Below, piece after piece: positions 5,591-9,182 of a stretch of DNA of 41,897 nt (position 1 is its first letter; each line of letters begins with the position of its first letter). The notes beneath the pieces were generated by a model, which was given only the letters and a program-made list of their open reading frames with translations, made no database searches and was not told the DNA's origin. The position numbers and the translations under genes are program-made. Source of the stretch: Actinomycetes bacterium (lineage in GTDB: Bacteria > Actinomycetota > Actinomycetes > Streptosporangiales > Streptosporangiaceae); contig JAJYUU010000021.1 in NCBI GenBank assembly GCA_021792405.1, positions 1 through 41,897 on the forward strand, in the 5' to 3' direction.

Positions 5591-6568
5591 CTAGCTCTGA
5601 CCGTCGAACAGGCTGGTCACCGAGCCGTCGCTGAATACCTCGTTGATGGCCCTGGCGATCAGCGGGGCAATGGACAGCACAGTGAGCTTGTCGAATCGCT
5701 TCTCGTTCAGGATCGGCAGCGTGTTCGTCACGATCACCTCGCTGACCCGTGAGTTCTTGAGCATGTCGACGGCGTTGCCGGAAAGCACGCCGTGCGTCGC
5801 GGTCACGATCACCTGCGTCGCGCCCTGCTCGAACAGCGTGTCCGCGGCCTTCACGACCGTGTGGCCAGTGTCGATCATGTCGTCGACCACGATGCAGGTC
5901 CGCCCGGCTACCTGACCGACCACTTCCAGCACCCGGGCCTGGTTGGCAACCTCCGGGTCGCGGCGCTTGTGGATGATCGCCAGCGGGCAGCCGAGCCGGT
6001 CGGTCCACCGCTCGCACACCCGGACCCGGCCCGCGTCCGGCGCGACCACCGTCACCTGCGACACGTCCAGCTTGTCCTCCAGGTAGGACGCCAGGATCGG
6101 CAGCGCGAACAGGTGGTCGACCGGTCCGTCGAAGAAGCCCTGGATCTGCGCGGTATGCAGGTCGACGGCCATCAGCCGGTCGGCGCCCGCAGCCTGGAAC
6201 AGGTCGGCCATCAGCCGGGCCGAGATCGGCTCCCGGCCTCGGCTCTTCTTGTCCTGGCGGGCGTAGCCGAAGAACGGGGCGACCACGGTGATCCGCTTCG
6301 CTGACGCGCGCTTGAGCGCGTCCACCATGATCAAATGCTCCATAATCCACTGGTTGATAGGCGCCGTGTGGCTCTGCAGCACGAATGCGTCGCTGCCACG
6401 GACCGACTCAAGGAAGCGGACGAAGATCTCGCCGTTGGCGAAGTCGTATGCCGTGGTCGGGGTTGGTTCGATGCCGAGGCATCCGGCGATCTCCAGGCCG
6501 AGTTCGGGGTAGCCGCGACCGGAGAAGAGCATCATCTTCCGCTCGGGCGTGGCTGTCCTGCCGGTCAC
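5591..6568 (-). CDS. prs: Ribose-phosphate pyrophosphokinase (PRPP synthetase)
   Basis: Makes 5-phosphoribosyl 1-pyrophosphate from ribose 5-phosphate and ATP, the precursor of nucleotides, His and Trp. Family motifs are intact: FSGRGYPEL, FANGEIFVRF, ATP-site YARQDKKSRGREPISAR, DLHTAQIQGFFDGPVDHLFALP, and the PRPP loop VVVDDMIDTGHT. The frame opens at 6595 (GTG). I prefer the GTG at 6568 (325 aa), because AAGGAG lies at 6580-6585 and VTGRTATPERKMMLFSGR aligns with the MTG...EKKMMFFSGR start of Streptomyces Prs. With this start it begins 5 nt after the glmU stop, so the two are very likely co-transcribed. Confidence 0.95.
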   Translation of the reverse strand: MTGRTATPERKMMLFSGRGYPELGLEIAGCLGIEPTPTTAYDFANGEIFVRFLESVRGSDAFVLQSHTAPINQWIMEHLIMVDALKRASAKRITVVAPFFGYARQDKKSRGREPISARLMADLFQAAGADRLMAVDLHTAQIQGFFDGPVDHLFALPILASYLEDKLDVSQVTVVAPDAGRVRVCERWTDRLGCPLAIIHKRRDPEVANQARVLEVVGQVAGRTCIVVDDMIDTGHTVVKAADTLFEQGATQVIVTATHGVLSGNAVDMLKNSRVSEVIVTNTLPILNEKRFDKLTVLSIAPLIARAINEVFSDGSVTSLFDGQS

Positions 6569-6573
6569 TTGCG

Positions 6574-7707
6574 TTAACTCTCCTTGCGTTGCCACGTGCT
6601 TGCGCTTGCTGCCGACGGCGGATGTGCCGACGGGCCACGTTCACTGCCCTGCTGGCTGCTGGACCCCGGCGCCCGGCAGCCAGCCCGGAGGTGAGCGAAC
6701 GGGCCGACCATGGCGCCCGCTTCGATCACGGCTTCCTCGCACACTGCCTGCAGCACTCTCGCGCCAGCCCCGACCGTCGTGTCGCGCAGCAGGCAGCCGG
6801 GCCCGACAGTGGCGCCGGCGCCGATGACGGTTCGGCCCTCGAGTTGGGTGGCCGGGCAGATTCGCGCGCCCGGCTCGATCCGCACGTCGACGCCAATCCA
6901 CGTACTCGCCGGGTCCACGATCGTCACGCCTGCCGCCATGCAGCAGGCCAGCAGTCGCTCGTTGAGCACGCGCCGTGCCCTGGCGAGCTGAGCCTGGTCA
7001 TTGACGCCCTGGATCTCATCGAAGTCCGGGCAGAACGCGCTGCCGACAAGGTGGCCGTCGGCGCGCAGGATGGCGGGCACCTCGGTCAGGTACTCCTCAC
7101 CCGTCGCCCTGGCGGGCGGAACCCGCTTGACGGCGTCGGCGAGCAACTCACCGTCGAACGCGAACATGCCCGAGCTGATCTCGGCCAGCGCTCGCTGCTC
7201 TTCCGTCGCGTCGGCTTCCTCGACAATGCCGCTGACCTGGCCGTCCTCGTTCCGGATGATCCGGCCGTAGCCTGTCGGGTCCGGCGCCTGCGACGTCAGC
7301 ACGGTCACCGCCGCGCCCGCGGCCTCATGCTCGGCGGCAAGGCGCGCCAGCGTCGTGCTGCGCAGCATCGGCGTGTCGGAGAACAGCACGATGACGGTGC
7401 CGTGGATGACGCCGACGGACTCGACCACCATACGCACGGCGTGCCCGGTACCCCAGGAGCCGCGGCGTTCCTGCACGACCAGGTCGGCTTCCGGCCAGTG
7501 CTCGCGCGCGTACCCGGCAACCTGGCCGCGCAGGTCGCTGACCACCAGGATCAGCCGCTGCGGCCGCAGATCACTGGCGGCGGCCAGCACGTGACCCAGC
7601 ATCGGGCGGCCGCAGACCTCGTTGAGCATCTTCGGGGTGGCTGTGCGCATCCGGGTGCCCTCGCCGGCCGCCAGCACGATGACGGCGGCCGGACCGTGTG
7701 CTGTCAC
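6574..7707 (-). CDS. glmU: GlmU with intact N-terminal uridylyltransferase fold but deleted acetyltransferase domain
   Basis: GlmU normally acetylates GlcN-1-P and then makes UDP-GlcNAc for peptidoglycan. Actinobacterial GlmU is about 480-495 aa; this one has 377. The N-terminal nucleotidyltransferase domain is complete (AAGEGTRMR, TPKML, SDTPML, TGYGRI). The left-handed beta-helix starts (VGPGCLLRDTTVGAG) but stops at VGPFAHLRAG. The next residues, CRAPGSSSQQGSERG, match the extreme C-terminal tail of mycobacterial GlmU (RKRPGSPAAQASKRA). About 120-125 residues are therefore missing in frame, including all acetyltransferase catalytic residues. Several uridylyltransferase positions also differ from the usual: SGDTP reads FSDTP, the NxG motif reads SSG, YLTD reads YLTE, VNxR reads VNDQ. 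The start is GTG at 7707. Either a real degenerate copy or an assembly deletion. Confidence 0.85.
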   Translation of the reverse strand: MTAHGPAAVIVLAAGEGTRMRTATPKMLNEVCGRPMLGHVLAAASDLRPQRLILVVSDLRGQVAGYAREHWPEADLVVQERRGSWGTGHAVRMVVESVGVIHGTVIVLFSDTPMLRSTTLARLAAEHEAAGAAVTVLTSQAPDPTGYGRIIRNEDGQVSGIVEEADATEEQRALAEISSGMFAFDGELLADAVKRVPPARATGEEYLTEVPAILRADGHLVGSAFCPDFDEIQGVNDQAQLARARRVLNERLLACCMAAGVTIVDPASTWIGVDVRIEPGARICPATQLEGRTVIGAGATVGPGCLLRDTTVGAGARVLQAVCEEAVIEAGAMVGPFAHLRAGCRAPGSSSQQGSERGPSAHPPSAASASTWQRKES

Positions 7708-8099: not shown

Positions 8100-8171
8100 T
8101 CCCGGGTCGTCTAGCCGGCAGGACGGGGTCTTTTGGTGTCCCTAACCGAGGTTCGAATCCTCGCCCGGGAG
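8100..8171 (+). tRNA. tRNA-Gln (anticodon UUG)
   Basis: A 72-nt cloverleaf. The acceptor arms TCCCGGG/CCCGGGA pair over 7 bp, discriminator G follows, and CCA is not encoded. The D stem is GTCT/GGAC, the T arm is CGAGG-TTCGAAT-CCTCG, and the variable loop is TAAC. The anticodon loop TTTTGGT reads TTG at 34-36, so it decodes CAA. The anticodon stem GGGTC/GTCCC has one T-T mismatch at 30-40. A convergent gene on the other strand ends within the 3' half of the tRNA. Confidence 0.88.
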
Positions 8172-8990
8172 CAGCAATGAGCCGGGAGTGTTGTTCGTGT
8201 CCTCCCCCGGCAGCGCCATCGCGGCGAATGCCCAGCCTTCGACCTGCCGGTACAGTTCGGCACTGCGACGCACCTTGATGATCAAGCAACCGCGGTAGCT
8301 TTCACCCGTGTTCTTTCGGATGGTCTTCGGATTGTGCCGCTTGAGGGTCGGGCGCCTGAATTGCTCTTCGGGCAGCCCGGTGACGCCCACCCAGAACTGC
8401 TGAGCGGCGTCTACGTCTGCGCTTTCGTGGATGTGCACCCGGCAGACAAGCCGTTCCGGCGCGATGCCCGCAACCGTGAGGAACCGCAGAAAGAGCCTGA
8501 TCAGCCCCGGATCGCTATTGATGAAGCCGAGCTGCTCGCTGGGACGATGCGGCTTGCTCTTGCTGCCCTCGCACCAGTAGGCGATGGCACCTGCGATCAG
8601 GATCTCGCGCTCGCTCAGCTCGCCAATCTGAGCCCCGGCACTGTCGCTGACCGCTTGCCGCCTCGCCTCGCGGATCGGCCGCTCGGCTGCCCAGTACTTG
8701 GCTACACCATCAGCGTTGCGCTTGCGGAACTCTTCGTAGCTCAGCCGCCCGCGGCGCGGCAGGTCGCGCACCCAGAGCGACACCGAGCCCTTCGAGACGC
8801 CCAGCTCGGCGGCTATCTCGTCATAGGTGCGGCCGTTGGCGCGCAACTCGCGCGCTTTCAAGCGCAGCTCGTCTTTTGCCCTCGGTCGTAACGTCCACAG
8901 CGGTGCCGGCTCGCCGCGCAGCGCGTGGTTCAGCGTGGAGTTCCCGACGCCTAAGTTCGATACTAAGTTCGGGCGATGGCCACGCATGCG
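8142..8990 (-). CDS. Helix-turn-helix protein with nuclease-like (possibly LAGLIDADG-related) C-terminal domain, tRNA-linked
   Basis: 282 aa from the ATG at 8990; the frame opens earlier at 9152, with a Thr/Val-rich stretch that mirrors the desaturase promoter and looks non-coding. Residues 52-76 (GRTYDEIAAELGVSKGSVSLW) are a clear recombinase/Hin-type HTH. The C-terminal part has ILIAGAIAYWCEGSK, LGFINSDPGLIRLFLRFL, CRVHIHESADVDAAQQFW and PTLKRHNPKTIRKNTGESYRGCL. I have seen this block in uncharacterised actinobacterial proteins. Its hydrophobic helix followed by an acidic residue and GSK recalls degenerate LAGLIDADG homing endonucleases, but that assignment is inference. The TAG stop lies inside the antisense of tRNA-Gln, so the last 10 codons are tRNA sequence. 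Convergent with the tRNA and divergent from the desaturase. Function unknown. Confidence 0.7.
   Translation of the reverse strand, partial: RMRGHRPNLVSNLGVGNSTLNHALRGEPAPLWTLRPRAKDELRLKARELRANGRTYDEIAAELGVSKGSVSLWVRDLPRRGRLSYEEFRKRNADGVAKYWAAERPIREARRQAVSDSAGAQIGELSEREILIAGAIAYWCEGSKSKPHRPSEQLGFINSDPGLIRLFLRFLTVAGIAPERLVCRVHIHESADVDAAQQFWVGVTGLPEEQFRRPTLKRHNPKTIRKNTGESYRGCLIIKVRRSAELYRQVEGWAFAAMALPGEDTNNTPGSLLLPGEDSNLG
8193..8214 (+). repeat. Degenerate copy of the tRNA-Gln 3' end
   Basis: Positions 8193-8214 match the T-arm/acceptor end of tRNA-Gln (8151-8172) at 18 of 22 positions, 42 nt downstream. It appears in the convergent protein as the pair LPGEDTN and LPGEDSN. It resembles an att-site duplication from insertion at a tRNA 3' end, but is short enough that chance is possible. 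Confidence 0.45.
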
Positions 8991-9070
8991 GCGGTCCGCT
9001 GCGGGTACGTGCCTCTTACCGTCTCCTATCCAGGACCATGCCGAAGAATTTTCGCTGGCCGTAGTGCAAC

Positions 9071-9099
9071 TTACGGTCACGTAGGTTACGGTTACGTAA
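9071..9099. promoter_or_regulatory. Tandem palindromic operator upstream of the desaturase
   Basis: Two adjacent 14-nt palindromes of the form TTACG-N4-CGTAR, at 9071-9084 and 9086-9099, with a 15-nt period. The second is perfect (TTACG-GTTA-CGTAA). They lie 84-112 nt before the desaturase ATG. Arrangement and symmetry suit a dimeric TetR-family repressor, and a TetR gene follows the desaturase, making it the prime candidate. Confidence 0.6.
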
Positions 9100-9182
9100 G
9101 CGTATTCTGCAGGAGCCCCTGCCCATGGCGATGCAGACCGGTTATCCCGCAACTGACGGCTGAGTGCCAGGCGAGGATCCAG

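Follow-up and report, generated by a model that had tools for sequence, protein, structure and literature searches.

A truncated GlmU in an uncultured actinobacterial clade and a GNA1-like candidate for the lost acetyl transfer

Introduction

In bacteria, the acetyltransferase half of GlmU is considered essential, and it is being explored as a target for drugs. A 2001 study by Pompeo reportedly dealt, to judge by its title, with autonomously functional GlmU domains. In a passage of PMC5615194, the rickettsial GlmU is described as lacking its entire C-terminal acetyltransferase domain, and the passage adds that these bacteria are thought to use host GlcNAc-1-P; according to an excerpt of PMC5814848, none of the Rickettsiaceae examined there has GlmS or GlmM. 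On the uridylyltransferase side, a section of PMC10128056 presents GlmR/YvcK of Listeria as an accessory uridyltransferase for UDP-GlcNAc with no acetyltransferase activity. In searches of the open-licence literature we came across no actinobacterial GlmU described as lacking its acetyltransferase domain; Rickettsia was the one natural precedent that we met. Here we describe such a GlmU in a window of 41,897 nucleotides, the whole stretch of DNA that was analysed (contig JAJYUU010000021.1 of assembly GCA_021792405.1), which belongs to a 5.4 Mb genome of the Streptosporangiaceae (G000). We also describe a candidate enzyme for the missing step.

Results

A GlmU that ends inside the beta-helix

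Residues 3-345 of the window protein match GlmU, both as a family (NCBIfam PRK14352, E 1.2e-122) and in the structures of the Mycobacterium tuberculosis enzyme (E 5e-78 against PDB sequences), and neither kind of search found a GlmU match beyond about residue 349. The protein ends inside the beta-helix, and the C-terminal beta-helix acetyltransferase domain that belongs to a bifunctional GlmU is absent, as the first-pass annotation, made from the letters alone, had read in describing an acetyltransferase part that is gone in a frame that continues. Because this second half is absent, the protein scores 410 bits against PRK14352, below the cut-off of 611. The annotation also placed prs in its usual position, and sequence and Pfam Pribosyltran_N confirm this: the GTG of prs lies 5 nt past the glmU stop. 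On the other flank of glmU there is a tRNA-Gln (anticodon ttg) at 8100-8172 on the plus strand, whose end is overlapped by a minus-strand ORF (8142-9152) with a weak helix-turn-helix match (Pfam HTH_23). The features are collected in Table 1.

Table 1. Features of the truncated glmU locus and of the candidate acetyltransferase gene
Feature	Position	Strand	Details and basis
Truncated glmU ORF	6574-7707	-	377 aa, GTG start
GlmU uridylyltransferase domain and first beta-helix coils, residues 1-343	6679..7707	-	Retained, constrained; families, structures, alignment, dN/dS
Non-homologous C-terminal tail, 34 residues and stop, replacing the acetyltransferase domain	6574..6678	-	Stops read, alignment, shuffle test
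Codon of Ser179 (Asn in intact GlmUs)	7171..7173	-	Row comparison
prs (ribose-phosphate pyrophosphokinase), next gene, start codon inferred	5591..6568	-	Sequence, Pfam Pribosyltran_N
147-aa GNAT	G000 contig 88, 12919-13359, outside the window		GNAT comparison of G000 with G019

The uridylyltransferase domain keeps the UTP/Mg residues K26, Q79, D111, E163 and N236, which are invariant, together with G86 and T87, across 14 aligned rows. Residues named as essential or pocket-forming in passages on Haemophilus influenzae GlmU (K25, Q76 and D105; PMC10128056) and on M. tuberculosis GlmU (Asp114, Glu166 and Asn239; PMC9105790) have their equivalents kept in the same 14 rows. In five pairs, the kept domain has dN/dS values of 0.137, 0.097, 0.22, 0.20 and 0.254, and it is under purifying selection. 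An AlphaFold model of the short protein was too poor for use (mean pLDDT 55). On this pattern of kept residues and constraint, the short GlmU is very probably a surviving monofunctional uridylyltransferase, with an activity predicted from its sequence.

The truncation is shared by nine genera

Our survey of the family covered 341 genomes and used a profile of the GlmU C-terminal half. The truncated pattern occurs in 20 of them, from 9 genera (E 1e-37 to 1e-49). A GlmU match is present in 316 others, 314 of which score at or below 7.4e-101, while the remaining two (G153 and G182) match in two pieces and were counted as not truncated on the profile match alone; five genomes have no GlmU match (G005, G025, G069, G084 and G302). 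Several of the GlmU matches among 60 relatives share the end point of the window gene. We read the DNA to the stop in all 20 truncated genomes, the window and nine relatives and then ten more, and each protein stops shortly past a VGPF-type motif with a short tail of its own, followed by prs. When the truncated profile was used to collect 80 named loci, two of these proved to be truncated, one in a Streptosporangiaceae MAG (L116) and one in a Centralia MAG (L134), whose row is identical to that of G086.

A tree of GlmU residues 1-345 plus Prs was built from 56 rows and 673 columns, without the partial genes of G001 and G085 and with the Centralia MAG counted as a row in spite of its identity to G086 (profile A1 left out L025). 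The 19 truncated rows fall together in a single clade (99/94), next to which stands a group of 13 rows with intact GlmU, and no independent loss of the acetyltransferase domain was found among the 56 rows. Since the truncated clade is single, any association with the truncation counts as one event, and we give no significance over genomes. The loss of the domain is almost certainly real and old. An assembly artefact, one of three options left by the first-pass annotation, or a decaying pseudogene might be suspected from the fact that all truncated genomes seen are drafts and that five family genomes lack a GlmU match; this explanation is hardly credible against an identical end point before prs in separate assemblies of 20 genomes and 9 genera, a dN/dS well under 1, and a full-length GlmU match in none of the 20.

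A drifting tail and two altered sites

The annotation had taken the gene for a clean in-frame deletion that kept the original GlmU C-terminus, and this part did not survive comparison. We compared the tail with the C-terminal 45 residues of 17 intact GlmUs, and over 300 shuffles, 3% to 90% of the shuffled versions scored as well, with one GlmU below 5% and one more at 5%, so that the tail is barely better than shuffled sequence. Further, the tail varies in length and sequence among truncated relatives, and its dN/dS, computable in two of the five pairs, is 0.77 and 0.49. These results together indicate a truncation with a drifting tail, and the resemblance to the mycobacterial C-terminus is probably due to chance.

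Drift had also been noted at four motifs of the uridylyltransferase domain. This is borne out for SSG and YLTE, whereas the changes in SDTP and VNDQ are minor, the Ser of the former and the Gln of the latter each being found in one of 37 intact rows at that position, and the key residues named above are not affected. At the SSG site, residue 179 is Asn in 37/37 intact rows and in the 11 other truncated rows, and each of the 8 rows of genera g1 and g20 has Ser. At the YLTE site, residue 209 is Asp in 37/37 intact rows, but 8 of the 19 truncated rows have Glu or Ala there, seven of them among the eight rows of g1 and g20. Residues that are otherwise near-invariant were altered at these sites only after the domain was lost, and the changes may alter the sugar pocket. 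The gene is, as the annotation favoured, real and diverging; it is the only one that the clade has, not an extra copy.

The pathway genes are kept without the usual acetyltransferase

We found no other GlmU acetyltransferase domain in the window's genome, either by genome search or with the C-terminal-half profile. A second intact glmU had been another option, but the genome gives just one further match, at 29% identity, to part of an 847-aa frame (contig 154) whose other half fits the GlmM profile. Besides the short gene, the C-terminal profile returns from this genome only that frame and one match at E 0.00998. The same profile finds the short gene in 11 of 12 clade genomes (the gene of G005 runs off a contig), and G003, G006, G007 and G008 also show weak, partial beta-helix matches, which differ between genomes and reach E 4e-13 at best. 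In all, reading of stops and the genome and family profile searches did not support an artefact, a second glmU, or a split or shifted acetyltransferase domain.

The genes on either side of the missing step are present. With G025 counted as a clade member, glmS is above the cut-off in 12 of 13 clade genomes (the miss is G002), glmM in 11 of 13 (G002 and G003), and murA is matched in 15 of 16, in 14 of them above the cut-off, the miss being G027, which is 88% complete. Since glmS, glmM and murA are kept in the absence of the usual acetyltransferase, it is probable that UDP-GlcNAc is required in the clade and that GlcN-6-P is made there. Six loci around glmM or glmS (L102-L106 and L110, of 15 fetched) show no neighbouring acetyltransferase gene except one GNAT, which, from its place in a tsaB-tsaD cluster, we take to be RimI-like. 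The active-site loops of GlmM show no change in 10 truncated-clade rows and G025 relative to 4 intact rows, and so do not tell one order of acetylation and isomerisation from the other.

A 147-aa GNAT co-occurs with the truncation

We compared the GNATs of two genomes that lie far apart in the clade, G000 (46 matches) and G019 (82 matches), after fetching them in large part. Among the GNATs conserved between the two, a 147-aa protein was chosen by eye for its WIEDVVV stretch, which resembles that of GNA1, the eukaryotic glucosamine-6-phosphate acetyltransferase, and its distribution was tested afterwards. Orthologs with at least 61% identity are present in all nine g1 genomes, G019, G025, G027 and G036, followed by G013 (55%) and G055 (48%). 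Within the family, the GNAT is present in 19 of 20 truncated genomes as against 11 of the 316 other GlmU-bearing genomes, and in three of the five without a GlmU match; it was not detected in the truncated genome G227, which is 74% complete. Across the class it occurs in 14 of 394 genomes, two of these from the family. Since the GNAT family is also found in those 11 GlmU-bearing genomes and in some others, its presence need not mean loss of GlmU.

In a tree of 43 GNAT rows, built without the partial matches of G178 and G574, the GNATs of 20 clade genomes, here including G005, and of G025 form one clade (99/95), while those of genomes with a longer GlmU and of G084 fall outside it. This position suggests that G025 probably belongs to the clade, with its glmU in an assembly gap. 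Contig 434 of G025 (L328) and contig 21 of G084 (L389) both carry the GNAT in genomes with no GlmU match. The GNAT of G084 groups with GNATs from another family, although G083, a member of the same genus, carries a full-length GlmU and gives no match to the GNAT. Outside the clade the GNAT family is patchy in actinobacteria (L331, L398-L406 and L376-L388), with other neighbourhoods where these were examined (G013).

The GNAT gene is not adjacent to hexosamine genes. Often found around it are a class-V aminotransferase and genes for ABC transporters, the transporters being named by eye. In several clade genomes the class-V aminotransferase-like gene is next to the GNAT or close by, at 3670-4908 of L326 and at equivalent places in L327-L330, a link that is perhaps only a shared neighbourhood.

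As a control we took 39 ORFs for the 46 matches of G000, 63 loci for the 82 of G019 and 29 loci for the 38 of G022. With this crude two-genome filter, four other G000 GNAT ORFs are also common to G019 (with identities of at least 45% for three of them and 44.9% for the fourth) and unmatched in the 29 G022 loci.

The candidate resembles eukaryotic GNA1

A profile of the GNAT family, compared with a PDB set of 68 sequences that includes many other GNATs, matches the GNA1 of Trypanosoma brucei (E 1.2e-10), Caenorhabditis elegans (4.1e-9), Arabidopsis (2.3e-6) and human (4.5e-5 and 8.8e-5), behind a best match, 1z4e, whose function is not known. The predicted fold is good (pLDDT 90.1), and a Foldseek search with it places 2dxq, also of function not known, first and TbGNA1 third, at 29-30% identity in this search (structure 3i3g is identified as TbGNA1 in a passage of PMC4964394).

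The active site of CeGNA1 is described in an excerpt of PMC3413214: Glu104 and Asp105 bind the hydroxyls of the sugar, while the acetyl group is held by the backbone of Asp105-Val106; Tyr149 has been proposed to act in catalysis, and the phosphate is bound by Lys136 and Arg164; the same excerpt reports that the active-site Cys was found not essential. All 43 GNAT family members have Glu-Asp-Val, aligned with Glu104-Asp105-Val106, and Tyr129, aligned with Tyr149 and with the Tyr of TbGNA1. The position of Cys141 (118 in the GNAT) is Ser or Thr in 43/43, and TbGNA1 likewise has Ser there. On the phosphate side, Thr or Ser takes the place of Lys136, which is not conserved, and Arg143, present in 43/43, is one residue off Arg164 by ungapped count from the Tyr. 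The loop before the Tyr is three residues longer than that of TbGNA1 and contains Arg119-Pro120-x-Arg122. Trp79 and Arg140 are each found in 21/21 clade GNATs, against 5 and 0 of the 22 others, and their fixation may mark a change of role.

These comparisons bear on what the enzyme would acetylate. A simple swap of enzymes, with the same short GlmU and with this GNAT acting on GlcN-1-P once GlmM has formed it, would keep the bacterial order; such a swap would suit the usual type of the clade GlmM loops and the lack of a conserved phosphate-binding Lys; it is unlikely, as the nearest characterised matches of the GNAT are GlcN-6-P enzymes. They also bear on the choice of gene. The association between GNAT and truncation being a single event, one could suppose that another acetyltransferase, a different GNAT or an unrelated fold, does the lost step and that the contig-88 gene is an unconnected gene of the clade; the four ORFs that pass the same filter and the weak partial beta-helix matches in several clade genomes would speak for this as well. 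We consider this improbable, since those beta-helix matches vary from genome to genome and the contig-88 GNAT alone has the GNA1-type motif among the ORFs scanned: Glu-Asp-Val was found once among 232 ORFs of the G000 loci and once among 407 of those of G019, in the same gene both times.

Discussion

Our main reading, to which we give a probability of about one half, is that this GlmU is monofunctional, that its acetyltransferase half was lost once, and that the amino sugar is acetylated by the 147-aa GNAT, most likely in the manner of GNA1. Of the three options raised by the first-pass annotation, supply of GlcNAc-1-P by another enzyme is the one that survives, now with a specific candidate. 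The acetyltransferase half would have been lost in the ancestor of at least nine uncultured actinobacterial genera, a loss tolerated thanks to the GNAT coded elsewhere. GlmS would make GlcN-6-P, the GNAT would convert it to GlcNAc-6-P, GlmM would handle this acetylated sugar and isomerise it to GlcNAc-1-P, and the short GlmU would turn the latter into UDP-GlcNAc for MurA. That the GNAT replaces the lost step in one order or the other is likely, its substrate being predicted from the GNA1-type residues. The broader picture is more tentative, and somewhat doubtful as a whole: a walled, large-genome clade that would make UDP-GlcNAc in the eukaryotic style, with a GNA1-like GNAT, GlmM and a naturally monofunctional GlmU, and that would have dispensed with the GlcN-1-P acetyltransferase domain of bacteria.

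That the domain was shed while glmS, glmM and murA were kept points to an acetyl step that some other protein is able to perform. The clade makes the GNA1 order of UDP-GlcNAc synthesis testable in bacteria, and it offers predicted natural stand-alone uridylyltransferases for enzyme work.

The closest natural parallel is Rickettsia, which shares with the clade the loss of the whole acetyltransferase domain, as described in that passage of PMC5615194. This likeness would speak for a clade living by salvage only, with imported or recycled GlcNAc phosphorylated to GlcNAc-6-P and passed to GlmM, and with no de novo acetylation, as proposed for Rickettsia with host GlcNAc-1-P. Such a way of life is very unlikely here: the clade keeps glmS and glmM, unlike the Rickettsiaceae in the excerpt of PMC5814848, and the window's genome is as large as 5.4 Mb. 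On our preferred reading, the clade would further differ in having a substitute enzyme.

Compared with bifunctional GlmU (PRK14352; the M. tuberculosis enzyme, PDB 3d8v and others), the window protein has in common the uridylyltransferase domain, the UTP/Mg residues and the place before prs, and it differs in the lack of the acetyltransferase domain. GlmR/YvcK, as presented in that section of PMC10128056, belongs to another protein family and works beside an intact GlmU, unlike the short GlmU. The eukaryotic GNA1 enzymes (TbGNA1, 3i3g; CeGNA1, 4ag7; hGNA1, 3cxp) are, like the candidate, small stand-alone GNATs with Glu-Asp-Val and Tyr; the candidate, compared with them by sequence and predicted fold, is bacterial and does not have Lys136 or Cys141. 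Apicomplexan enzymes have been used to complement a yeast strain with a temperature-sensitive gna1, according to the abstract of PMC5838249. Finally, an engineered truncation of E. coli GlmU (residues 1-331, PDB 1fwy) ends at nearly the same place of the beta-helix; that truncation is man-made, whereas the one in the clade is natural and fixed.
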